A stretch of 64,000 bases of DNA, from assembly GCF_001571385.1 (NCBI RefSeq), contig NZ_BCNW01000001.1, forward strand, positions 1,984,001-2,048,000, given 5' to 3'. Of the stretch, positions 28,762 to 42,485 are shown piece by piece. This stretch comes from Methanofollis ethanolicus. Lineage in GTDB: Archaea; Halobacteriota; Methanomicrobia; Methanomicrobiales; Methanofollaceae. Under the pieces are notes generated by a model. That model had not been told where the DNA came from and did not search any database. It was given only the letters and a program-made list of their open reading frames with translations. The translations under genes were made by a program, and so were the position numbers. Each line of letters starts with the position of its first letter. Within the stretch, counting starts at the first letter, position 1.

Positions 28762-31700
28762 CTATCTCCTCTTCCTGAGCACGACCGCCGCGATGATGAG
28801 GGCGGCCGCCGCACCGCAGACGAGGACGAGCACGGAGGGGAACGGCTGGGAGGTCTCCGTCGGAGGAGAGGTCGTTTCGACCGTCGTCACCGGGGGGATG
28901 GGTTCGGTCGTCCCTGCCTGTGCGCCGGCGTCAGGGGTTTCGACCGCGACCGGTGCCGGGTCTCCGCCGATCGCAAAGAGGGAGAAGCCCGGACTCCTGG
29001 CCGAGAAGTACCAGAAGGTTGCGTCCTCCCCGATGACCTCGGTGGGGAGGGCCTGCCACGCGCCGTCGTGGTACCGGTACAGCACCACGTCTGCCGGGTC
29101 GAGGCTGTTCTCCTCCAGCCACGCCTTCGGGATGCTGAAGAAGATCAGGGTGCCTTCGATGGCGTCGTCGGTCGTGTGGTAGATCGTCACCTCGTCGTAC
29201 TCAAAGACCAGGCCAGCAGGGGCGTCGACGCCGGAGAGGAGGCCTGTCCGCCCGATCGTGACCAGCAGATTCGGGATCTCGGTTGCGGCCGTCACCCTGA
29301 TCTCGTAGATGGCCGGGCCCGAGAACGTGAGGGAGGCGTTGCCACCGGGCGGGATCTTCCCTGCCGACGCGGCGGATATGTCAGAGTGGCCGCCTCCGGA
29401 ACCGGAGGGGGATGACACAGGTTCGAGGGCGAAGGCGACGGGCACCGTCTCCCCCGGCACGACTGTCACCACCCTCTGTGCCGGCGTCACGTAGCCGTCG
29501 AGGGTGATGGTGACCATATGATCGCCGACAGGGAGGTAGAGGGAGGTGTCGGTTGTGCGGCCGATCATCACGCCGTCCAGGTGGACGGACGCCCCCGCGG
29601 GCGTCGAGGCGATCCCCACCGTCCCGCCGTACACCAGCGGGAGATAGTCGGTGCCGAGGTTCGGGATCTCCAGTGATTCGTCGCAGATGCCGTCGAAGTC
29701 AGCGTCCGTGCCGCTTTCTGAGATGTTCTGTGCGGGGTCATTCAGCCAGAGGTTGCCGCCGAGGTACGGGCCGCCCGCGATGTTCGTGCCGATGGTGCGA
29801 GCGGCATTGAGGACGCCGGTGGAGTTCTCAGCGTGGATGTTGGTGGGGTTCTCGAAGCGGCAGTCGGCGACGAAGGTGTCATTGCACCACGAGACGTACG
29901 TCCCGCCGCCGTCGGGTGCGTCGTTCCCGGTGAACGTCGTCCTCTCCACCGAGAGATTGTCGACCGCTCTGGCAGAGAGCGCACCGCCGGATACGTCTGC
30001 CGCGTTCCCGGCAAAGGTGCAGTCGGCGATGGTGAAGTGCTGTATGGGCACCCGGTATGAACGTAAGAACCCGCTGACATTGACCGCACCGCCTGCATGG
30101 GCGGCGCGGTTGCCGGCGAAGGCGGAGGTGTTGAGCGTGACGTCATCGCACTGATAGAAGTCTGCCCCGCCGCCGTAGTCCGCGCTGTTCCCGGTGAAGG
30201 AGAGGTCGGTGAGCATGGCTTCATCGCAGTCCACGAAGTATGCCCCGCCGCCGCCCCTCTCCGCGGTGTTGTTGGTGAAGGTGGAGCCGGCGAGCACGGC
30301 CGTGGGGAGCATGACGCGATTGGGTCCCTGGAAATATGCCCCGCCGCCTAAGAATGCGGAGTTGCCGGTGAGAGTGGTGTTGGTGAGCGTGGCGCAGGAG
30401 CCATCGGCAATGTAGAAGCGTGAGCCGCCGCCCTGGCTGGCGGCGGCGTTGTCGTTGAAGGTGGAGTCGGTGATCGTGACAGGCCCGCGTGAATACAAGA
30501 AGTCCGCGCCGCCGCCGCAACTGGAGGCACGGTTGCCGGTGACGGTGGTGTCGGTGAGCGCGGAGCCGTTGCAGAAGAGGAACTGTACCCCGCCGCCGAA
30601 TCGTGCGGCGTTGTCGGTGAAGGTGGTGTCGGTGAGCACGGAGTCGTTGCAGTACATGAACTGTGCCCCGCCGCCGTACCTGGTGGCGTTGTTGCCGGTG
30701 AACGCGGTTCTCTCGACCAGGAGGTCATTGACGTACGTGGCAGAGAGCGCACCGCCGGCTGCATCGGTCCCGTTCACCTTATTCCCGGAGAATGTGCAGT
30801 CGGCGATGGTGAGGTGCTTCAGGCGGTCTGTTTCACTCCCGGTAGCATTGATCCCGGCGCCGCTGCTTGTATCATTATTCAACCTGTTCCCGGAAATATT
30901 GAGGCCGCGGAAGGTGGCGTTGTCGGCAACAACGGTGAACGCGGGGGCGGTGTGCGAGGTGTTGGTGACGAGCGGTTGTGCGGGTGAGCCTTCCCAGCGT
31001 TTGACCATCACGTGGGGTTTGTCAATGACGACCCCGCCTTCGTACGCATGGCCTTCGACGCCCCAGATGTGGATGGTGTCGCCCGCGCCGAGATCGGGGA
31101 TTGCGGAGATGTTCGTGAAGTTGCCGTTACCCGGCATCGGCGAAACGTACCAGTCCATCGGGTGTTTGATCTCAATGAGGGCGAAGGCGAGGGGGGCGTT
31201 CGCACCGGGGGTGACGGAGATCCGCTTCTCGCCGGGGAGGTAGCCGTCCTTCCGCACCGAGACGGTGCGGTCGCCGACCGGGAGATAGAAGGCGTCGTTC
31301 GCGGTGCGGGTGGTGTTCGCGCCGTCAATGTAGACGAAGGCGTCGTCGGTGGGGGTGGCGGCGACTTGCACCGTGCCGCCGCCGTGTATCAGCGGGAGGG
31401 AGTCGGTGCCGAAGAGGTAGTCTGGGTCTTCTCTGTTGGTGATGTTCAGCGGTTGGTCGCAGATGCCGTCGAAGTCGTCGTCCGTCCCCCACCCGGAGAT
31501 GTTCTGGGCGGGGTCATTCAGCCAGACGTTGCCGCCGAGGTACGGCCCGCCGGCGATGTTCGTGCCGCGGGTGCGGGCGGCATTGAGGGTGGCGCCGAAG
31601 GACATCTCTGCATAGATGTTGGTGGGGTTGTCGAAGCGGCAGTTGGTAAGCGTGGCGGCACGGCAGGTCTCAAAATATACCCCCCCGCCGTGATCGGTTG

Positions 31701-32931
31701 CGGTGTTGCGGGCGAAGGTGGTGCTGGTTATGGTGGCGGCATTGGAATCATAGAACCATGCTCCGCCACCGTGCTCAGTTGCGGAGTTGCCGGTGAATTC
31801 GGTGTCGGTGAGCGTGGCGCGACGGCTGGAATAGAAGTATACTCCGCCGCCGTTGGTTGCGGAATTGCCGGTGAAGGTGGTGGCGGTGATCGTGGCGTCG
31901 GATGAAAGGGCGAAGTATGCCCCGCCGCCTCCGAATCGTGCGCTGTTGCCGATGAAGGAGGTTTTGGTGAGCGTGGCGGCATCGCAGAACTCGAAGTATG
32001 CCCCGCCGCCGTAGGGTGCGTCGTTCCCGACAAAGGTGCAGTCGATGATGGAGAGGCGCTCCAGGGGGGTGCCGGGACCTGTCCCTGTGGCGTAGATCCC
32101 GGCGCCGTCCTTATCGTTCAACTGGTTGTCCGAGATGTTGAGGCCGCGGAAGGTGGCGTTGTCGGCAACGACGGTGAAGGCCGACATGCCGGAGCGATTG
32201 GTGACGAGCGGTTGCACGGGAGACCCTTCCCACCGTTTGACCGTCACGTCGGGGACGTCGATGACGACGCCGCCCTCGTAGGTGTAGCCCTCGACACCCC
32301 AGATGTGGATGGTGTCGCCCGCGCCGATATCGGTGATATTCAGGAGACCGGTGACATTCTCATACGCGTGGGGGTTGCCGGTGCCCGGCACCGGGGAGAC
32401 GTACCAGTCCCTCGGGTGAGTGCCCGGCAGGGGGTCGGCCAGGACGACCACCGGGGCGGTCATCATGAGGGGGGGTATCTCCTCTGCAACGGCCTCGATC
32501 GCAGCGGTTTTCGCGAGGGGGACGGTGGTGTTTCTTGCAGTGAGGGCGACTGTGTGGGTGCCGGGTTGAAGGAACGTGTGGGTGAAGTCCGACCCGTTCC
32601 CGATCGCCGCGACGCCGTCGACCGTCCAGTTCCAGAGGTCGACCGTGAGGCCCGTCGCCGCCCCGGTGAACCGCACGGTGAGCGGCACCGGGCCGCCGGG
32701 GGGATCGGCAGTAATCGAGAGGACAAGCGCCGCGTCCGGGGGCGTCTCCATTTCCAGCGGGAGTGTGGTGTTCGCGACCATTTCGGCGGGCGCCAGAGTT
32801 TCAGGCGGGCTTGCGCCCTCTCCATCGCCGGAGACCGTGCCGATGATACAGGCCATGGCCACCAGCAGGACTGCGAAAAAAGGTATTTTTTTCGGGAAGG
32901 GGGGTATATTTCTCATTTCAGACCTCCGCAC
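28762..32931 (-). CDS. Large duplicated beta-helix surface protein with PEGA and PGF-pre-PGF domains
   Basis: The 1389-aa product has a signal peptide (about residues 1-36), a PKD-like domain (70-135) and a polymorphic-protein-type beta-helix with many FTGNSATNGGG repeats (175-510). A PEGA domain (about 535-600) follows, then a second, longer beta-helix (600-1080) and a second PEGA domain (1085-1150). The protein ends with a PGF-pre-PGF domain with SARSPGFSLFAIGG, a Thr/Pro linker and a membrane anchor (VLVCGAAAALIIAAVVL, then RKRR). The beta-helix/PEGA unit is plainly duplicated: AGDTIHIWGVEG and EGSPxQPLVTN occur in both halves. It is probably exposed on the S-layer and involved in adhesion. 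An alternative start is Met6. It has no operon partner. Confidence 0.88.
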   Translation of the reverse strand: MRRSEMRNIPPFPKKIPFFAVLLVAMACIIGTVSGDGEGASPPETLAPAEMVANTTLPLEMETPPDAALVLSITADPPGGPVPLTVRFTGAATGLTVDLWNWTVDGVAAIGNGSDFTHTFLQPGTHTVALTARNTTVPLAKTAAIEAVAEEIPPLMMTAPVVVLADPLPGTHPRDWYVSPVPGTGNPHAYENVTGLLNITDIGAGDTIHIWGVEGYTYEGGVVIDVPDVTVKRWEGSPVQPLVTNRSGMSAFTVVADNATFRGLNISDNQLNDKDGAGIYATGTGPGTPLERLSIIDCTFVGNDAPYGGGAYFEFCDAATLTKTSFIGNSARFGGGGAYFALSSDATITATTFTGNSATNGGGVYFYSSRRATLTDTEFTGNSATEHGGGAWFYDSNAATITSTTFARNTATDHGGGVYFETCRAATLTNCRFDNPTNIYAEMSFGATLNAARTRGTNIAGGPYLGGNVWLNDPAQNISGWGTDDDFDGICDQPLNITNREDPDYLFGTDSLPLIHGGGTVQVAATPTDDAFVYIDGANTTRTANDAFYLPVGDRTVSVRKDGYLPGEKRISVTPGANAPLAFALIEIKHPMDWYVSPMPGNGNFTNISAIPDLGAGDTIHIWGVEGHAYEGGVVIDKPHVMVKRWEGSPAQPLVTNTSHTAPAFTVVADNATFRGLNISGNRLNNDTSSGAGINATGSETDRLKHLTIADCTFSGNKVNGTDAAGGALSATYVNDLLVERTAFTGNNATRYGGGAQFMYCNDSVLTDTTFTDNAARFGGGVQFLFCNGSALTDTTVTGNRASSCGGGADFLYSRGPVTITDSTFNDNAAASQGGGSRFYIADGSCATLTNTTLTGNSAFLGGGAYFQGPNRVMLPTAVLAGSTFTNNTAERGGGGAYFVDCDEAMLTDLSFTGNSADYGGGADFYQCDDVTLNTSAFAGNRAAHAGGAVNVSGFLRSYRVPIQHFTIADCTFAGNAADVSGGALSARAVDNLSVERTTFTGNDAPDGGGTYVSWCNDTFVADCRFENPTNIHAENSTGVLNAARTIGTNIAGGPYLGGNLWLNDPAQNISESGTDADFDGICDESLEIPNLGTDYLPLVYGGTVGIASTPAGASVHLDGVMIGRTTDTSLYLPVGDHMVTITLDGYVTPAQRVVTVVPGETVPVAFALEPVSSPSGSGGGHSDISAASAGKIPPGGNASLTFSGPAIYEIRVTAATEIPNLLVTIGRTGLLSGVDAPAGLVFEYDEVTIYHTTDDAIEGTLIFFSIPKAWLEENSLDPADVVLYRYHDGAWQALPTEVIGEDATFWYFSARSPGFSLFAIGGDPAPVAVETPDAGAQAGTTEPIPPVTTVETTSPPTETSQPFPSVLVLVCGAAAALIIAAVVLRKRR

Positions 32932-33182: not shown

Positions 33183-33190
33183 CTTATATC
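33183..33190 (+). promoter_or_regulatory. TATA box of the riboswitch-controlled alpha-toroid gene
   Basis: CTTATATC lies about 40 nt before the riboswitch. An almost identical CTTATATCCG lies before the crcB riboswitch at 34181. Confidence 0.55.
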
Positions 33191-33228
33191 CGGTGCGTGC
33201 GAAGGAAACCCTGACCGATACACGGATG

Positions 33229-33276
33229 CAGGCGATGAAGTCCGCCGTCAACCGCCCTCCGGGCTGATGACTTCTG
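33229..33276 (+). promoter_or_regulatory. Fluoride riboswitch 1
   Basis: GGCGATGAAGTCCGCCGTCA, followed by ACCGCCCTCCGGGCTGATGA and CTTC, follows the crcB motif. P2 is GGCG/CGCC, the pseudoknot stem is GCCC/GGGC, and P1 is GAAGTC/GACTTC. Compared with the second switch, P1 has changed on both sides (GACGTC/GACGTC), which is compensatory. It ends 16 nt before the ATG at 33292, so it may mask the ribosome-binding site. Confidence 0.85.
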
Positions 33277-33291
33277 CATGGACTCAGTCGT

Positions 33292-34146
33292 ATGACCGGA
33301 CGTGAACTCAGGGAATCCTGCATCGCATACATCGCCGACCGGCGCTGTCCGGACGGCGGCTACTGTTTCTACCGCCTGAACGAACCGAACGCCGCGGACA
33401 CCTTCTTCGCCCTCGACATCCTCCGCCTCTTCGGGGCGGTGGACGCCGATCCGGCGACCGCCCGCTGGCTGCTCTCCCGCCAGCAGGACGACGGACGGTA
33501 CCCGGTCTTCGAGACCGGGTATTATGCCCTCCTCGCCCTCGGTATCCTCAGGACCCCGCCCCGTTATGACCCCGCCCCCTGGGTCAGGTCGGTCGTGCCC
33601 CCGGCGCCGGGGGCGGAGAGGCCGGTCGAGTCGGAGAGCGCTCTCCACCGCCCGTACCTCTATGCACGCCTCTGCCGCCACACCGGCATCAGGATCGCTC
33701 CTGCCGTCAGGGTAGGCCTGCTCGCCGCGGTCCATGCCTCCCGCACGCCAGAAGGCGGTCACGCCACCCTCGTCGAGGCCTCTCAGGCCCTTGCCATCCG
33801 CGCCGCAGTCGGTGCCCCTGTCTGCGGAGACGGTGCGGCGGCGTTCCTCCAGAGGTGCACGCACCCGGAGTACGGCTACGTGAACGTGCCCGGCACCTCG
33901 CCCGCCTACCTGGAGCACGTCGCCGCCGGCGTCGCCGCGGCGCGGCTTCTGGAGGTCACACCCTCGCCGGCGGCCGGGCCCTTTGTCCTCAAGTGCCTGA
34001 CACCCGCGGGGGGTTTTGCCCGCTCGGTCTTTGGCGGCACGGCGACCCTGGAGACGACATGGACGGCGGTCAGGATCCTTCGACTCATCGACACCGGCCA
34101 CGATTCCTTGCGCGTCTCCGATGAAAAACGGATGGGTGTCCTGTAA
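33292..34146 (+). CDS. Alpha-toroid (prenyltransferase/terpene cyclase-like) protein under fluoride control
   Basis: The 284-aa product consists of helical-hairpin repeats with GG-F/Y turns: CPDGGYCFYRLNEPNAADTF, DDGRYPVFETGYYALLALGI, PEGGHATLVEASQALAIRA, EYGYVNVPGTSPAYLEHV and GGFARSVFGGTATLETTW. This is the pattern of prenyltransferase-beta and squalene-cyclase-like alpha/alpha toroids. The DxDD motif of cyclases and the complete zinc ligands of protein prenyltransferases are not evident, so catalysis is unproven. It stands directly behind a fluoride riboswitch and upstream of the crcB operon, so its expression should rise with fluoride. A role in membrane lipid or protein modification during fluoride stress is conjecture. 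Confidence 0.75.
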   Translation: MTGRELRESCIAYIADRRCPDGGYCFYRLNEPNAADTFFALDILRLFGAVDADPATARWLLSRQQDDGRYPVFETGYYALLALGILRTPPRYDPAPWVRSVVPPAPGAERPVESESALHRPYLYARLCRHTGIRIAPAVRVGLLAAVHASRTPEGGHATLVEASQALAIRAAVGAPVCGDGAAAFLQRCTHPEYGYVNVPGTSPAYLEHVAAGVAAARLLEVTPSPAAGPFVLKCLTPAGGFARSVFGGTATLETTWTAVRILRLIDTGHDSLRVSDEKRMGVL

Positions 34147-34180: not shown

Positions 34181-34190
34181 CTTATATCCG
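34181..34190 (+). promoter_or_regulatory. TATA box of the crcB operon
   Basis: CTTATATCCG lies about 25 nt before the riboswitch, placing the transcription start close to its first helix. Confidence 0.55.
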
Positions 34191-34208
34191 CGAGAAGTAC
34201 AGTTATTC

Positions 34209-34258
34209 AGGCGATGACGTCCGCCATCAACCGCCCCGTTCGGGACTGATGACGTCTA
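34209..34258 (+). promoter_or_regulatory. Fluoride riboswitch 2
   Basis: GGCGATGACGTCCGCCATCA, followed by ACCGCCCCGTTCGGGACTGA and TGACGTC, matches the fluoride-sensing crcB motif. P1 is GACGTC/GACGTC, P2 GGCG/CGCC, with a C-rich/G-rich pseudoknot stem. Some 160 nt separate it from the crcB start, enough for a termination-type expression platform. Confidence 0.9.
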
Positions 34259-34419
34259 TTTTCCGCCGGACGGACGTGCAATGCCATGGGACACCATTAC
34301 ACCTCTAGCTCTTCATGTAGCTGTGGGTCCGTCCGGCAGAGGGCGAAGGGATTCGCCCGGGTTTTAACATGACCGATCCTCATGCGGGCTGAATCTCTCC
34401 GCCCGGAGGACCACGAGAG
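34259..34419 (+). promoter_or_regulatory. Leader/expression platform of crcB
   Basis: This leader contains a CCGCCGGACGGAC segment that can pair with GTCCGTCCGGC near 34326-34336. It also contains GGGCGAAGGGATTCGCCC (34340-34357), a stable hairpin followed by GGGTTTTAAC. Such a structure could terminate transcription when fluoride is absent. Confidence 0.45.
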
Positions 34420-34803
34420 ATGCAAGCATGGATCATTGTGGGCATCGGCGGATTTGTCGGTGCCGTACTCAGATATTTCACCAGCGGGTGGCTGCAGGGG
34501 AGCGTCAGCACTTTCCCCATCGGCACCCTGGGGGTGAATGTGATCGGTAGTTTTCTTCTCGGTTTGGTCATGTACCTCTCCGAGTATGGGGGCGTCTTTG
34601 ACGGCGAAACCAGGATTTTCCTGACTCTCGGCGTTCTCGGGGCGTTCACGACAATGTCGACGTTCGGCTATGAATCGTTCCGCCTCCTGGAAAACCACGA
34701 GTTCGGGTTCTTCGCTCTGAACGTGTTCGCCACCTCGGTCCTGGTCGTTCTGGCCGTCTTTGCAGGGAAAGTGACGGCGGGCTACCTGGAGGCATCGCTA
34801 TGA
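34420..34803 (+). CDS. crcB: Fluoride ion channel CrcB/FluC
   Basis: The 127-aa product has four membrane segments and the Fluc signature residues: GGFVGAVLRYF near the start, GTLGVNVIGSFLLGL (the conserved Asn), and LGVLGAFTTMSTFGYESF (the conserved Phe and Thr residues around the central sodium). Fluc channels are dual-topology dimers that let F- leave the cell. A fluoride riboswitch upstream fixes its job in fluoride resistance. The DUF190 gene begins inside its stop codon (ATGA). Confidence 0.93.
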   Translation: MQAWIIVGIGGFVGAVLRYFTSGWLQGSVSTFPIGTLGVNVIGSFLLGLVMYLSEYGGVFDGETRIFLTLGVLGAFTTMSTFGYESFRLLENHEFGFFALNVFATSVLVVLAVFAGKVTAGYLEASL

Positions 34804-35153
34804 AACTGGGAAAAAATGCACAGGCCGTGCTTCTCCGGATCTATATCGGGGAATCTGACCGGTATGAGGGAAAACTCCTCTATCGTTATCTCGTTGAATT
34901 GCTCAGAAAAGAAGGATTTTATGGCGTGACCGTGCTGCGCGGGATCACGGGATTTGGCAAGACGAGCCTGATCCATACGGCCTCGATCCTCCGGCTTTCC
35001 ACTGACCTCCCGGTCGTCGTGGAGGTCGTGGACTCGAGAGAGAAGATCGAGGAGATCAAACCGGTCCTGGAAAAGATCATCGATGGCGGTCTGGTCACCG
35101 AGGAAGAGGTGACGGTCTGTTTCTACCACGGTGATGACGAGGAAAAAGAGTGA
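34800..35153 (+). CDS. DUF190 protein, crcB partner
   Basis: The 117-aa product has the DUF190 pattern: LLRIYIGESDRYEGKLLYRY, GFYGVTVLRGITGFG, and DLPVVVEVVDSREKIEEIKP. DUF190 proteins have a PII-like ferredoxin fold and often accompany CrcB channels. They may regulate or sense for the channel, but their function is not established. The ATGA overlap with crcB shows the two are co-translated and under the same riboswitch. Confidence 0.88.
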   Translation: MKLGKNAQAVLLRIYIGESDRYEGKLLYRYLVELLRKEGFYGVTVLRGITGFGKTSLIHTASILRLSTDLPVVVEVVDSREKIEEIKPVLEKIIDGGLVTEEEVTVCFYHGDDEEKE

Positions 35154-37258: not shown

Positions 37259-37627
37259 TCAGGTGCGGGGCGGCGCCCACCGCTCGCCCTCGCCGGTGAG
37301 GCGGTAGATGATCCAGTTGCCCTGCTGATCGCCCTGGATCAGTCCGGCTTTTTTGAGCACCGAGAGGTGGTAGGAGAGTTTGGAGTCGGCGATCTCGAGC
37401 ACCGCCTTGATCACGCAGACGCAGAGGGGCTGGACGGCGAGCATGGCGAGGATCTTCTGGCGGAAGGGGTCGGCGAGCGCCCGGTGGACGGCGCACCTCG
37501 CCGCGATCGCGGCGTGGTCGGGCAGACGTTCGATCAGCCCTTCGATGCCGCCGCACCGGCAGAGCGACGCTTCGATCTCCGAGGGGATGCCGCGGTATCC
37601 CTCTCCACAACACTTCTTCTCGTCCAC
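37259..37627 (-). CDS. arsR: ArsR-family transcriptional repressor
   Basis: The 122-aa product is a winged-helix protein with FRQKILAMLAVQPLCVCVIK and LEIADSKLSYHLSVLKKAGL, the recognition helix of ArsR/SmtB proteins, and a wing GNWIIYRL. CVC in the helix after the first strand corresponds to the Cys pair that binds As(III) in classical ArsR. Extra Cys pairs near the N-terminus (KKCCGEG, LCRCGG) may add to metal binding. It is divergent from the large arsenic-type operon. Operators of the form TTCA-N8-TGAA lie in the intergenic gap at 37649, 37718 and 37771, so autoregulation and operon control are likely. Confidence 0.9.
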   Translation of the reverse strand: MDEKKCCGEGYRGIPSEIEASLCRCGGIEGLIERLPDHAAIAARCAVHRALADPFRQKILAMLAVQPLCVCVIKAVLEIADSKLSYHLSVLKKAGLIQGDQQGNWIIYRLTGEGERWAPPRT

Positions 37628-37648
37628 GCTTGTTTCTCCTCCGATAGT

Positions 37649-37664
37649 TCAAACGATTATGAAA
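37649..37664. promoter_or_regulatory. ArsR operator candidate 1
   Basis: TTCAAACGATTATGAA has the TTCA-N8-TGAA form and sits 22 nt before the arsR start codon. It could mediate autorepression. Confidence 0.6.
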
Positions 37665-37717
37665 TGATGCCAGATATAGGGTTCGGTCAGGCGCGGGTCC
37701 TGCGCCGCCCTGCCTAT

Positions 37718-37733
37718 TTCAAAAATTAGTGAA
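37718..37733. promoter_or_regulatory. ArsR operator candidate 2
   Basis: TTCAAAAATTAGTGAA is in the same TTCA-N8-TGAA form, in the middle of the arsR/operon gap next to a CTATATAC TATA-like box (37742-37749). Confidence 0.55.
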
Positions 37734-37770
37734 ACCGCAACCTATATACACCGGCGCAGCCAATCGAAGA

Positions 37771-37786
37771 TTCAAACAAATTTGAA
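37771..37786. promoter_or_regulatory. ArsR operator candidate 3
   Basis: TTCAAACAAATTTGAA is an almost perfect palindrome placed just downstream of the TATA-like box and 11 nt before the first operon gene. Bound repressor should block initiation. Confidence 0.65.
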
Positions 37787-37796
37787 ACACTGCTAC

Positions 37797-37949
37797 ATGG
37801 TGATGAAATTGACTGAAAAAGATACGGTAAAGAAAGAAGGCGGGTTCCTCTCCCGCCTGCGCTCGATGGGCGGACAGGACTGCGGATGCGGCTGCTGCGG
37901 CGGCGTGAAGATCGTACCGAAAGAGAAGAAGGCCGAAGAGAAGGAGTAA
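37797..37949 (+). CDS. Small Cys-rich protein heading the arsenic-type operon
   Basis: The 50-aa product (MVMKLTEKDTVKKEGGFLSR...) contains a tight cluster DCGCGCCGG at residues 29-37 with four Cys, then a Lys/Glu-rich tail. The cluster could bind As(III) or a soft metal. It follows the ArsR operator directly. Internal ATG choices (residue 1 or 3) are both possible. I know no named family, but the context suggests a metalloid chaperone or buffer. Confidence 0.7.
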   Translation: MVMKLTEKDTVKKEGGFLSRLRSMGGQDCGCGCCGGVKIVPKEKKAEEKE

Positions 37950-37989
37950 GTGAGAGGGATGGGTCCGGGAACGGGACGGAGGGAGAGCG

Positions 37990-38916
37990 ACGGCGCTCAC
38001 TGAGACGCTTCTTGAAGCGGGCGGGTTCTTCGTCGTGATCGCCGGCGAACTGGTCATCCTCTTTGTCGGGGTCAGTTTCCTGGTCGGTCTGCTCCAGGCC
38101 TACATCCCGGAGGAGCGGATCAGGCGGACCCTGGCCGGACGGGGCGAAGGTGCCTCCACCGTCCTCGGCGGCGTCTTCGGGGCGCTCACGCCCTTCTGCT
38201 CCTGCTCCACGATCCCGATCCTGGTCGGTCTGCTCAACGCCGGGATCCCGTTCGCCGCCTGCATGGCCTTCCTGCTCGCCTCGCCCCTCTTAAACCCGGT
38301 GATCCTCTCCCTCCTGGCCGCCCTCATCGGCCCGGTGCCGACGGCGATGTACGCCGTCATCACCTTCTGCGCCGCCCTCGTGCTCGCCACCCTCCTGGGG
38401 CGGCTCGGGTTTGCGCGATACGTGAAGGAGGTGACCGTCGAGGGGATGGCGGCGGCGCCGGCGTGCGGGTGCGAGGGGGGCACCTTTGCGGAGCGTCACG
38501 GCCCGCGGTTCTCCGCCGCCCTGCACTTCGCCGTCTCGCTCTTCCGCCAGGTCTTCCCGTACCTCGTCCTCGGCGCCGCCATCGGGGCCTTCATCTACGG
38601 TTTCGTCCCGGCCGACCTCATCGTCTCGGTCGCCGGGCCTGACAACCCCCTCGCCATCCCGGCCGCCGCCCTGATCGGCATACCAATGTATATCAGGGCT
38701 GAGACGATCATCCCGATCAGCGCCGTCCTCCTCCAGAAGGGGATGGGCGCCGGGGCGGTGATGGCCCTGATCATCGGCGGCGCCGGGGCGAGCATCCCGG
38801 AGATCACGCTGCTCTCGGCGATCTTCGAGCGGCGCCTGGTGGCGGCCTTCGTCGTCACCGTGCTCGGGATCGCCGTCCTTGCCGGGTTTGCCTTCGGCGT
38901 CATGCTCCCGGCATAA
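37990..38916 (+). CDS. ArsP-like permease (PF03773 type), first copy, probable ACG start
   Basis: About 308 aa with eight or so membrane segments. ALTPFCSCSTIPILVGL (near residues 66-82) matches the Cys-rich motif of ArsP/YraQ permeases; ArsP exports trivalent organoarsenicals. The coding sequence clearly continues upstream of the first GTG at 38035: TALTETLLEAGGFFVVIAGE reads as the missing N-terminus. No ATG, GTG or TTG occurs between the upstream stop at 37951 and that GTG. An ACG at 37990 sits 7 nt after GGAGGG (37978-37983), an ideal Shine-Dalgarno spacing. If ACG is not used, the protein begins at 38035 and loses 15 residues. Confidence 0.8.
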   Translation, partial: TALTETLLEAGGFFVVIAGELVILFVGVSFLVGLLQAYIPEERIRRTLAGRGEGASTVLGGVFGALTPFCSCSTIPILVGLLNAGIPFAACMAFLLASPLLNPVILSLLAALIGPVPTAMYAVITFCAALVLATLLGRLGFARYVKEVTVEGMAAAPACGCEGGTFAERHGPRFSAALHFAVSLFRQVFPYLVLGAAIGAFIYGFVPADLIVSVAGPDNPLAIPAAALIGIPMYIRAETIIPISAVLLQKGMGAGAVMALIIGGAGASIPEITLLSAIFERRLVAAFVVTVLGIAVLAGFAFGVMLPA

Positions 38917-38968
38917 ATGAGAAGGAACACACCACACCTCAAACACCAACAGCACAAGAGAGAAGATC

Positions 38969-40042
38969 ATGATAGACATCCTCATTGGCTCGCTCCTCAT
39001 GGGCTGGGAGACCCTGCTCGGCTACCTGGCCGAGCACGTCATCACCTGCCTGGTCCCGGCGTTCTTCATCGCCGGCGCCATTGCGGCGTTCATCAAGAAG
39101 GAGGCGATCCTCAAATACTTCAGCCCGGACGCGAAGAAGAGCGTCGCCTACGGCCTCGCCTCGGTCTCAGGGACGGTGCTCGCCGTCTGCTCCTGCACGA
39201 TCCTGCCGATGTTCGCCGGGCTCTTCAAGCGGGGCAGCGGCATCGGGCCGGCGACGACCTTCCTGTACGCCGGACCGGCGATCAACATCCTGGCGATCGT
39301 CTATACGGCAAAGGTGCTCGGCTTCGACCTGGGGCTGGCGCGGGCGGTCTTTGCAATTATCCTGGCGATCGTCATCGGTCTTGTCATGGCCACCCTCTTC
39401 CGCTCCCACGATGTCGAGACGCGGAAGAAGATGGCGGCGACGCCGCAGGTGCCCGCCGGCGGCGGGGAGGAGCGCCCCCGCTGGGTCGTCCCGGCGTTCT
39501 TCGTCATGCTGGTCGGGATCCTGATCGCCGGCACCGCCCAGGCCGACTGGATGATCAAGTTCCCGGTCATCTACGCCCTCACCCTGGGCACGGCCTACCT
39601 CCTCATCTACTTCTTCGAGCGTGACGAGGTGACCGAGTGGGGCTGGGAGACCTGGGACCTGACGAAGAAGATCTTCCCGATCCTGATCATCGGCACCTTC
39701 GCCCTCGGCATGCTCGCCTACTTCCTCCCGCCCGAGACCTTCGGCCCCTTCTTCGGGACGAACTCCCTCCAGTCGACCCTGCTCGCCTCGATCGTCGGGA
39801 CGATCCTGTACATGCCCACGCTCCTCGAGGTGCCGGTGATCGGCACCACCTTCGGCTACACCTCGGGCGTGATGGCCGGCGGCCCGGCGCTCGCCCTCCT
39901 CCTCTCCGGACCGAGCGTGAGTCTGCCCTCGCTCCTGGTGATCTCCCGGATCATGGGGCCGAAGAAGACCATCGTCTATGCAGTGCTCGTGATCGTCTTC
40001 TCGGCCCTCGCTGGGTTCGCGTACGGCCTGATCCTGGGGTGA
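38969..40042 (+). CDS. ArsP-like permease (PF03773 type), second copy
   Basis: The 357-aa product has about ten membrane segments, and VLAVCSCTILPMFAGLFKRG carries the CSC motif of the family. YAGPAINILAIVYTAKV and LLEVPVIGTTFGYTSGVMAG are the pore-lining repeat halves. It is a more distant paralogue of the permease upstream; the two may form a complex or handle different arsenic species. The ribosome-binding site (GAGAGAAGATC) precedes the ATG well. It lies 52 nt after the first permease. Confidence 0.85.
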   Translation: MIDILIGSLLMGWETLLGYLAEHVITCLVPAFFIAGAIAAFIKKEAILKYFSPDAKKSVAYGLASVSGTVLAVCSCTILPMFAGLFKRGSGIGPATTFLYAGPAINILAIVYTAKVLGFDLGLARAVFAIILAIVIGLVMATLFRSHDVETRKKMAATPQVPAGGGEERPRWVVPAFFVMLVGILIAGTAQADWMIKFPVIYALTLGTAYLLIYFFERDEVTEWGWETWDLTKKIFPILIIGTFALGMLAYFLPPETFGPFFGTNSLQSTLLASIVGTILYMPTLLEVPVIGTTFGYTSGVMAGGPALALLLSGPSVSLPSLLVISRIMGPKKTIVYAVLVIVFSALAGFAYGLILG

Positions 40043-40049
40043 ACAATAC

Positions 40050-40310
40050 ATGGCAGAACGAACAAAACCGTGCTGCGCCGCCGAGGCGATGCGGCGGATC
40101 AGGCAGATCGAGGTCGGCGGGATCGTCGTCGGCCTGGCCATGCTCGACGACGCCATCGACGAGGTGCGGGATATGCACCTCGCCGGCGCCGACGCCATCG
40201 CCGACGAACTCATGAAACAGATCACGATCTACAACTACGTACCCCGCGCGGCCGAAGCGGCCTACCGGACGGCCCTGCTCAGGGAGTACGAGAAAAAGGT
40301 GAAACCATGA
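40050..40310 (+). CDS. Conserved-looking 86-aa protein of the arsenic-type operon
   Basis: The product has a CC pair near its start (TKPCCAAEAMRRI) followed by predicted helices, and the end KQITIYNYVPRAAEAAYRTA resembles small proteins I recall beside permease/thioredoxin genes in other methanogens. It overlaps the thioredoxin-like start by 4 nt (ATGA), so it is co-translated. The function is unknown. A role in delivering metalloid or electrons between permease and thioredoxin would fit the CC pair. Confidence 0.75.
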   Translation: MAERTKPCCAAEAMRRIRQIEVGGIVVGLAMLDDAIDEVRDMHLAGADAIADELMKQITIYNYVPRAAEAAYRTALLREYEKKVKP

Positions 40311-40546
40311 AGATTGAAATCCTTGGAACCGGATGCATGAAATGCAAACGCCTGGCAAAGAACGTCGAATCTGCGGTCGCGGAACTCGGGATCTCCGCCG
40401 AGATCGAGAAGGTGGAGGATATCACCGCCATCATGGATAAGGGCGTGATGCTGACCCCGGCACTGATTGTCGACGGCGAACTGCGGGTCTCTGGCCGGGT
40501 GGCCGACGTGAAAGAGATCAAGGAGATCCTGCAGGGGGTGATCTGA
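40307..40546 (+). CDS. Thioredoxin-like small redox protein
   Basis: The 79-aa product contains the redox-active GCMKCKRLAKN pair (CxxC) and a typical short glutaredoxin/thioredoxin fold with TPALIVDGELRVSGR. It belongs to the redox-active disulfide protein 2 type frequently found with PF03773 permeases. It probably passes electrons to arsenic or sulfur chemistry in this operon. The gene ends with a stop codon TGA that lies within the ribosome-binding region of the next gene, in the same frame. Confidence 0.85.
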   Translation: MKIEILGTGCMKCKRLAKNVESAVAELGISAEIEKVEDITAIMDKGVMLTPALIVDGELRVSGRVADVKEIKEILQGVI

Positions 40547-41011
40547 ACGGCAGATCAACCCACCTGCACCTGCGGCGGCGGCGAGGCGACCGGGCGGAAG
40601 CGGATCATCTTCGCCTGCTCGGGCGCCTCGAACGTCGGTGAACTCTCGAATGCGGCGTCGGTCGCCCTCACGAGTGAGGGTTTCGGGAACAAGGCCTGCA
40701 CCGCTTCCCTGGCGATCAGGACGCCCTCGGTGATGAAGAAGGTCGAGGACGCCGACGAGATCGTCGTCATCGACGGATGTCCGGTCGAATGCGCCGGGAA
40801 GATCGCCGCAGCGGCGGGCATCGAGCCCGACCAGCACATCGTGGTCACCGAACTGGGGATCAAGAAGATCGGCGATATGACGGTTCATGAAGACGACCTT
40901 GAGACGGTCGTCTCGGCGGCCTGGGAGGGGAAGGGAGGGAAAAAGCCCGCCCCTGAAGAGAAAAAGCCCGGGAACGGCGGCTGCGGGTGCGGCTGCGGCG
41001 GGGGCTGTTAG
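40547..41011 (+). CDS. DGC-domain zinc-binding protein, probable ACG start
   Basis: The 154-aa product has an N-terminal CTCGG cluster, FACSGASNVGELSNAAS, FGNKACTASLAIRT, and VVIDGCPVECAGKIA, the motif that names the DGC family of putative metal-binding proteins. Its end is GGCGCGCGGGC, a metal-chelating tail. The conserved first 60 residues lie before any ATG, GTG or TTG. The codon directly after the thioredoxin-like stop is ACG, preceded by GGGGGTGATC (40534-40543), a near-perfect Shine-Dalgarno sequence. So translation probably starts at ACG 40547. A readthrough fusion of the two proteins at TGA is the alternative. Confidence 0.8.
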   Translation, partial: TADQPTCTCGGGEATGRKRIIFACSGASNVGELSNAASVALTSEGFGNKACTASLAIRTPSVMKKVEDADEIVVIDGCPVECAGKIAAAAGIEPDQHIVVTELGIKKIGDMTVHEDDLETVVSAAWEGKGGKKPAPEEKKPGNGGCGCGCGGGC

Positions 41012-41022
41012 AGGGGGGGAAA

Positions 41023-41409
41023 ATGGCCGGCACCCTTCTCGTGGAATGGCGGCACATCGGCGAGAGCGTGGATGCGACCTGCGAACGGTGTGCGGCGACC
41101 GGGCGCACCCTCGCTGAGGTCTTCGCCGCCATCCGCCCGGCGCTCTCGGCCCGGCGGATCAGGGTGCGGGTGACCGAGACGGTCCTCCCGCCGGAGCGGA
41201 TCGCCGAGTCCAACACGATCCTCTTCAACGGCATCCCCATCGAGGACCTCCTCGACGAGGTGCGGGTGGAGATGACCCCCTGCGCCTCCTGCTCCTGCAT
41301 CACCGGGACCGATGCCTCGTGCCGGGCGATCGTCTGCGGGGACGAGACCCACGAGGCCCTCCCCGCCGACCTGATCCTGAAAGCGGCACTGCGGGCGGTG
41401 GAGCCATGA
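41023..41409 (+). CDS. DUF2703 protein
   Basis: The 128-aa product begins [20 protein letters not shown] and contains [11 protein letters not shown] and [16 protein letters not shown], features of DUF2703. Near the end [15 protein letters not shown] adds a Cys cluster for metal or metalloid binding. DUF2703 genes are regularly found beside arsenic permeases in anaerobes, but the reaction is unknown; a thioredoxin-like fold is likely. The gene overlaps acr3 by 4 nt (ATGA). Confidence 0.8.
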
Positions 41410-42485
41410 CCGAACGCCGCCTCTCCACCTTCGAGAAATATCTCACGGTCTGGGTGGCGCTCTGCATCGTCGCCGGGATCGCCATCGGCCGCGCCGCCCC
41501 GGGCGTCGCCGTCGCCCTCGACTCCTTTTCCGTCTACCAGGTCTCGATCCCGATCGCGATCGCCCTTTTCTTCATGATGTACCCGATCATGGTGAAGATC
41601 GACTTCGCCGAGGTGCTCAGGGCGGCCCGGACCCCGAGACCCGTCGCCCTCACCCTCTTCGTGAACTGGGCGGTCAAGCCCTTCACGATGTACCTCCTCG
41701 CCACCTTCTTCCTGGGATATGTCTTTGTCGGGTTCATCCCGGGGACCGAGGTGCTCGCCGACGGGAGCACCGTCGAACTCTGGCGGAGCTACGTCGCCGG
41801 GTGCATCCTCCTCGGGATCGCCCCGTGCACGGCGATGGTGCTGATGTGGAGCTACCTGGCGAAGGGCAACGACGGCCTCACCCTGATCATGGTGGCGATC
41901 AACTCCCTCACGATGCTGGTGCTCTACGCCCCGCTCGGCGGGTTCCTCCTTGGCGTGAACGCCATGCCGATCCCCTGGGAGACGATCCTCCTCTCGGTCT
42001 CGGTGTACGTCGCCCTCCCGCTCGTCGCAGGCTACGTCACCAGGAAGTGGATCATCGCAAAGAAAGGGATGGCGTGGTTTGAGACGCGGTTTTTGAACCT
42101 GCTCACCCCGGTCTCGATCGTCGCCCTGCTCGGCACCCTGGTCCTCCTCTTCACCTTCAAGGGCGAGGTCATCGTCGAGAACCCCCTGACGATCCTCTGG
42201 ATCGCCGTCCCGCTCTTCATCCAGACGGTGCTCATCTTTACCCTGGGGTATTTCGTCCTGGCCCCGAGGATCGGCCTCCCCTACCGGGACGCCGCCCCGG
42301 CCGGGATGATCGGCGCCTCGAACCACTTCGAGGTGGCGATCGCAACGGCGACGATCCTCTTCGGCCTGGGGTCGGGGGCGGCGCTTGCGACGGTCGTCGG
42401 CGTCCTGATCGAGGTGCCGGTGATGCTGATGCTCGTAAAAATCTGCCTGCGCACGCAGGGAATGTTCAGGAGTGAACCGACATGA
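41406..42485 (+). CDS. acr3: Arsenite efflux permease Acr3
   Basis: The 359-aa product has ten membrane segments and the Acr3 signature [19 protein letters not shown], with the Cys (about residue 141) needed for As(III) transport. [20 protein letters not shown] and a conserved late motif [13 protein letters not shown] also match. It exports arsenite. The start is the ATG that overlaps the DUF2703 stop codon. It is the best-defined component of the operon and fixes its arsenic theme. Confidence 0.93.

Follow-up and report, generated by a model that had tools for sequence, protein, structure and literature searches.

We analyzed a window of 64,000 nt from Methanofollis ethanolicus (NZ_BCNW01000001.1, positions 1,984,001 to 2,048,000, forward strand), to whose numbering all coordinates given here refer. 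Only two Rfam matches are recovered within it by cmscan, both full-length, both on the + strand, and both to the fluoride riboswitch RF01734 (gathering cut-off 34 bits). The first (33222..33283, +; 54.8 bits, E 1.9e-12, model positions 1-64) is upstream of a gene at 33292..34146 (+) coding for a 284-aa α/α-toroid protein (PF00432, 38.4 bits, E 1.3e-9; gathering score 26.5 bits), whose ATG begins about 16 nt 3' of the last conserved base of the aptamer. The second (34201..34265, +; 46.9 bits, E 7.4e-10) is upstream of crcB, which codes for a CrcB/Fluc fluoride channel (34420..34803, +; PF02537, E 2.2e-24; TIGR00494, 84.6 bits vs a cut-off of 80.45). The stop codon of crcB is overlapped by a DUF190 gene (34800..35153, +; PF02641, E 4.1e-37), and the two are probably co-transcribed. 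A TATA-like element, TTATATCC (33184..33191, +), read from the sequence as a likely archaeal promoter, places the expected transcript start at about 33210, which is likely 5' of the first aptamer; the identical octamer recurs at 34182-34189, ahead of the second aptamer. A preliminary description of this DNA had announced a complete crcB-type riboswitch ending 16 nt before a gene, and both its completeness and its spacing are borne out by the significant covariance-model match, the Infernal search that had been proposed as the check. Divergent from the riboswitch lies a gene for a 1389-aa surface-type protein with NosD/β-helix, PKD, and PEGA domains (28762-32931, -), and farther downstream (37259-42485) an ArsR-family regulator (37259-37627, -) faces two permease genes along with genes for a small thioredoxin-like protein and for one resembling arsenite exporters, all but the regulator being called by sequence reading. 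No plasmid match was found that would indicate plasmid-borne spread.

The first aptamer comprises the helices P1 (33226-33230/33275-33279), P2 (33231-33234/33243-33246), and P3 (33254-33257/33261-33264), together with a pseudoknot joining the P2 loop to the 3' strand (33237-33242/33269-33274, from G33237-C33274 to C33242-G33269). The pair A33239-U33272 of this copy is C-G in the second; hence the compensatory change between the two copies that had been reported earlier is real, but it falls in the pseudoknot helix and not in P1, which is weak in the second copy. Across a set of 24 aptamers, of which 23 precede toroid genes and one is the crcB-associated copy of the window, the pseudoknot is paired in 100% and shows double changes at four of its six pairs, far above slid controls, with P1 being variable (43% paired). 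By its sequence, the segment 33222-33283 is a member of the RF01734 class, and fluoride binding would be expected of it from its family.

The AlphaFold2 model of the toroid protein (pLDDT 92.2, pTM 0.90) has as its top VIA-align match the β subunit of RabGGTase (3pz2_B; Z 23.5, rmsd 3.0 over 263 residues, 16% identity), followed by those of GGTase-I and FTase (Z 20-23.5 across the best β-subunit matches). Foldseek agrees on the protein-prenyltransferase β subunits and adds squalene-hopene cyclases; both groups are again recovered in a PDB profile search, and a PDB sequence search with the single protein gave no direct match. PF00432 is matched by all 22 members of toroid group A1. The earlier reading of the gene as one with terpene-cyclase/prenyltransferase-like repeats is therefore upheld with respect to fold, by the above-gathering PF00432 match and the toroid model; the structural comparison proposed alongside it returned the GGTase-β fold but neither of the catalytic signatures. 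The DxC zinc motif is not conserved: in an alignment of 41 sequences, [DE]xC reaches 40% at none of the column pairs (best 39%, at 226), and in a profile alignment an E and a variable residue stand at the places of the zinc Cys and His, the site having been mapped from sequence profiles and by scanning the whole alignment for the motif. The DXDD cyclase motif occurs in none of the 41, and no NCBIfam family matches the window protein at E 0.01, the best cyclase models scoring 11-13 bits vs cut-offs of 500-851. The prenyltransferase α-subunit family (PF01239) is represented in the M. ethanolicus genome solely by sub-threshold, TPR-like matches, which lie in one 464-aa ORF. Prenylation at a CaaX box of the dynamin-like GTPases encoded beside many toroid genes was considered and rejected, none of their listed C-termini ending in CaaX or CC. 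Given the missing DxC, DXDD, CaaX, and convincing α subunit, "prenyltransferase" and "cyclase" would name the fold of this protein without implying the activity.

Residues conserved in the toroid alignments include C19, G22-G23, C25, Y27, R28, E31, D36-T37, E208, C235, R244, and E254. In the model, D36, E162, E208, and E254 lie at the starts of what the toroid pattern suggests are the inner helices, and in related transferases the active site is the region at the N-termini of these helices. We read the toroid as a protein with a site of its own, probably neither a prenyltransferase nor a cyclase, our best guess being a soluble enzyme or binding protein that uses D36, E113, E162, E208, and E254, together with R28 and R244.

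The pairing of aptamer and toroid recurs well beyond the window. A third RF01734 site in the M. ethanolicus genome has a 73%-identical toroid paralog directly 3' of it, adjoining GroES-GroEL; the other PF00432 protein of this genome, serving as a negative control, is 680 kb from any aptamer. Toroid relatives are present in 26 of 150 genomes of the order Methanomicrobiales, and the riboswitch occurs in 25 of these 26 carriers vs 44 of the 150 overall (Fisher p=1.6e-15). A wider search of 84,980 genomes of named species yielded 47 toroid loci, of which 24 have an aptamer directly upstream (within 160 nt) and 13 more have one farther upstream, mostly with a gene for a dynamin-like GTPase in between; in L138 an enolase gene also intervenes, and L166 (aptamer ~3.4 kb upstream) and L169 (~1.7 kb) are looser cases. 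Eight of the 47 loci have no aptamer above threshold, one of which (L158) shows a 26.5-bit match upstream of its dynamin gene. The aptamer-linked loci include those from Methanomicrobiales, Thermodesulfobacteriota, Myxococcota, Pseudomonadota, and unassigned metagenome-assembled genomes, and relatives without any nearby aptamer are found in Hodarchaeota, Thermoplasmata, and Methylacidiphilaceae, so that a wider role of the family is possible. In the Hodarchaeota (L155, L157, L160), these riboswitch-less relatives have a small Arf-like GTPase as a conserved neighbor (PF00025, E 3.1e-22 for L155), an Asgard toroid/GTPase pairing that recalls eukaryotic GTPase prenylation.

In a phylogenetic tree, the euryarchaeal toroids group together (94/90), separate from the bacterial and Hodarchaeal ones. 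Distant toroids (23-33% identity) from other families of the archaeal phylum retain the aptamer link: L124 has a single operon of aptamer, toroid, CrcB, and DUF190; L119 has the order aptamer-Nudix-toroid-enolase with a glutamine synthetase upstream; and in L115 and L127 the aptamer is immediately 5' of the toroid. Together, these linkages rule out a chance neighborhood. In independent genomes, the toroid gene is thus consistently placed 3' of fluoride aptamers, as would be expected of a fluoride-regulon gene, and its control by a fluoride riboswitch, as the preliminary description had it, is supported by a linkage that extends across several phyla. Toroid and dynamin gene calls were rechecked by homology; toroid genes with a frameshift or stop, for which sequencing error is possible, are found at L047/L073 (G005), L066 (G141), L068 (G145), L069 (G023), and L071 (G008), and in G005 the aptamer pseudoknot is mismatched too (GACCUC against GAAGUC). 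Such broken genes in several relatives suggest that the toroid is dispensable in some lineages.

Besides the toroid, the first genes behind aptamers in Methanomicrobiales code for the dynamin-like GTPase (PF00350), CrcB, enolase, a Na/H exchanger, F420-0 γ-glutamyl ligase, a glutamine-synthetase-like protein, an MFS permease, a MutS-like ATPase, a thermosome-like subunit, and an ABC protein (enolase, glutamine synthetase, thermosome, and ABC calls by sequence reading, the remainder by Pfam). All 24 dynamin carriers in this order have the riboswitch, and toroid and dynamin occur together in 20 genomes (p=5.6e-16; p=1e-4 within riboswitch-bearing genomes). CrcB is absent from 16 of the 26 toroid carriers; a riboswitch-controlled CLC antiporter was considered as the exporter of crcB-less genomes and set aside: CLC proteins are common, but no aptamer target in our set was assigned to one. 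The M. ethanolicus genome has no PF00350 match, and dependence of its toroids on dynamin is accordingly rejected; presumably, the toroid can act alone. An anti-phage function was also discarded, the toroid having no PADLOC match and the dynamin partners resembling LeoA over short stretches only. Methanoregula-type genomes contain fluoride islands with seven to eight RF01734 matches per ~13 kb (L088, G096:C16:70-82 kb; L091, G142:C3:201-215 kb), where the aptamers mostly precede different genes, such as those for the Na/H exchanger, F420-0 γ-glutamyl ligase, and glutamine-synthetase-like, MFS permease, and thermosome-like proteins. Tandem aptamers, two per ~200 nt ahead of one gene, occur in L088 (10960-11223), L110 (5668-5917), and L090 (9825-10014), and an overlapping pair precedes a single gene in L096 (7087-7198). 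In bacterial fluoride operons, a HIT-domain protein is encoded 3' of the toroid in L138 (PF01230), L167, and L169, the latter two by sequence reading.

Partition-function calculations on the window leader identify a candidate expression platform, GGACUCAGUCGUAUG (33280..33294, +), that includes the start codon. In the predicted ligand-free fold, this segment forms a helix with the aptamer's 5' half (~33229-33244), leaving 33287-33294 mostly paired; when the aptamer is enforced, 33290-33293 are mostly free. Complementarity of this extent is equaled in 10 of 1000 shuffles for the window, and in 30 and 44 of 1000 for its two closest relatives. Leaders of the Methanoregula and Methanocalculus types are instead predicted to pair their Shine-Dalgarno sequence with the 3' strand of the aptamer (UCUACC), clearly beating shuffles in two of five. 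These folds point to fluoride-ON translation of the toroid gene. Control by premature transcription termination seems unlikely to us: bacterial fluoride riboswitches often overlap terminators (PMC2864571), the sequestering helix of the window leader is not shared by other Methanofollis leaders, and its complementarity is modest, but the gap of ~16 nt between aptamer and ATG has no terminator-like site in the window, and relatives possess hairpins that would sequester the Shine-Dalgarno sequence (L064, z -4.8; L060, z -3.2).

Given these observations, we propose, with a probability of roughly three in four, that a fluoride-ON riboswitch governs a dedicated fluoride-response protein. Intracellular fluoride would bind the aptamer, as in other members of its family, and lock the pseudoknot; the alternative helix between 33280-33294 and the 5' half of the aptamer would then break and translation start, with release of the Shine-Dalgarno sequence from the 3' aptamer strand as the likely variant in Methanoregula-type relatives. 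The product would be a cytosolic, single-subunit α/α-toroid with the predicted prenyltransferase-β fold, devoid of the zinc and cyclase motifs, and the conserved operons suggest that it supports growth in fluoride beside CrcB and, in most relatives, the dynamin-like GTPase and enolase. The best reading of the toroid is hence as an accessory, probably cytosolic, fluoride-tolerance protein. We more tentatively suggest, at somewhat less than even odds, that toroid and dynamin-like GTPase, often with enolase, form a riboswitch-induced archaeal and bacterial fluoride-tolerance module, as yet undescribed, that protects independently of fluoride export; many toroid carriers lack any CrcB.

The preliminary description had further supposed that the toroid acts in membrane lipid modification. 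An enzyme that modifies an isoprenoid or membrane lipid, thereby lowering HF entry or repairing membranes, possibly with the dynamin-like GTPase, appears improbable. The fold, shared with isoprenoid-using enzymes, is what favors it, and the frequent co-occurrence with dynamin-like GTPases, which are a membrane-remodeling family, would be in keeping with it. The sequences nonetheless show neither DXDD nor a conserved DxC, the window protein matches no NCBIfam cyclase closely, the family is common to archaea and bacteria despite their differing membrane lipids (the bacterial carriers having ordinary ones), and the M. ethanolicus genome lacks dynamin; the supposition is accordingly not borne out. 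A true protein-prenyltransferase β subunit, with the partner GTPase or some other protein as its prenylation target under fluoride stress, would explain both the best structural matches (RabGGTase and FTase β over ~263 residues) and the association with dynamin-like or, in Hodarchaeota, Arf-like GTPases; yet no alignment column conserves the zinc-ligand motif, the dynamin-like proteins lack CaaX/CC ends, and the α-subunit matches in the genome are sub-threshold and TPR-like, so that we hold it to be very improbable. That the aptamer serves the crcB cluster, with the toroid a bystander between two riboswitches, is scarcely credible, even with the adjacency of toroid and crcB in the window and the broken toroid genes of some relatives: CrcB is missing altogether from 16 of 26 toroid-bearing genomes, and toroids have an aptamer of their own at crcB-less loci, including the second copy in the M. 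ethanolicus genome near GroES-GroEL. These loci refute the bystander explanation for the toroid family.

Known fluoride defense consists of export and the overproduction of fluoride-sensitive enzymes, and the toroid and its partner GTPase offer concrete genes toward a further mode of tolerance. Within its order, the toroid family is nearly confined to riboswitch-bearing genomes, and it recurs in fluoride operons of several phyla, a pattern more in line with a dedicated factor than with a housekeeping gene that happens to be a target; going by these genomic patterns, the toroid family is very probably a dedicated yet undescribed factor in microbial fluoride coping. The idea that the locus represents an undescribed part of fluoride resistance gains support from its linkage, across several bacterial and archaeal phyla, with crcB-DUF190, enolase, and the dynamin-like GTPase.

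With the RabGGTase and FTase β subunits, the window protein shares the α/α-toroid fold along the whole chain, but it differs in lacking DxC, in having only sub-threshold α-subunit matches in its genome, and in length (284 vs ~330 aa). It resembles squalene-hopene and other class II terpene cyclases in its toroid repeats, remnants of QW-like repeats, and weak profile matches; unlike them, it is single-domain, lacks DXDD, and scores far below the NCBIfam cyclase cut-offs. The window riboswitch is typical of RF01734: its aptamer is complete, P2, P3, and the pseudoknot all being present, and a further copy lies upstream of crcB at the same locus. Described targets of this class include exporters, antiporters, enolase, pyrophosphatase, haloacid-dehalogenase-like proteins, formate hydrogenlyase, mutS, and chorismate mutase, among others (PMC2864571; PMC11139923), whereas the toroid gene governed by the window copy is absent from the targets in these two papers. 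In the literature searched, no paper connects fluoride riboswitches with genes for prenyltransferase-like proteins or dynamins, an entry in a table of the 2012 discovery paper being possible. In both archaea and bacteria, the toroid sits in fluoride-resistance operons with crcB-DUF190, enolase, and other stress genes, but neither it nor the dynamin-like GTPase is named as a component of such operons in the literature searched. The riboswitch class is already known; the novelty lies in the gene family and in its breadth.
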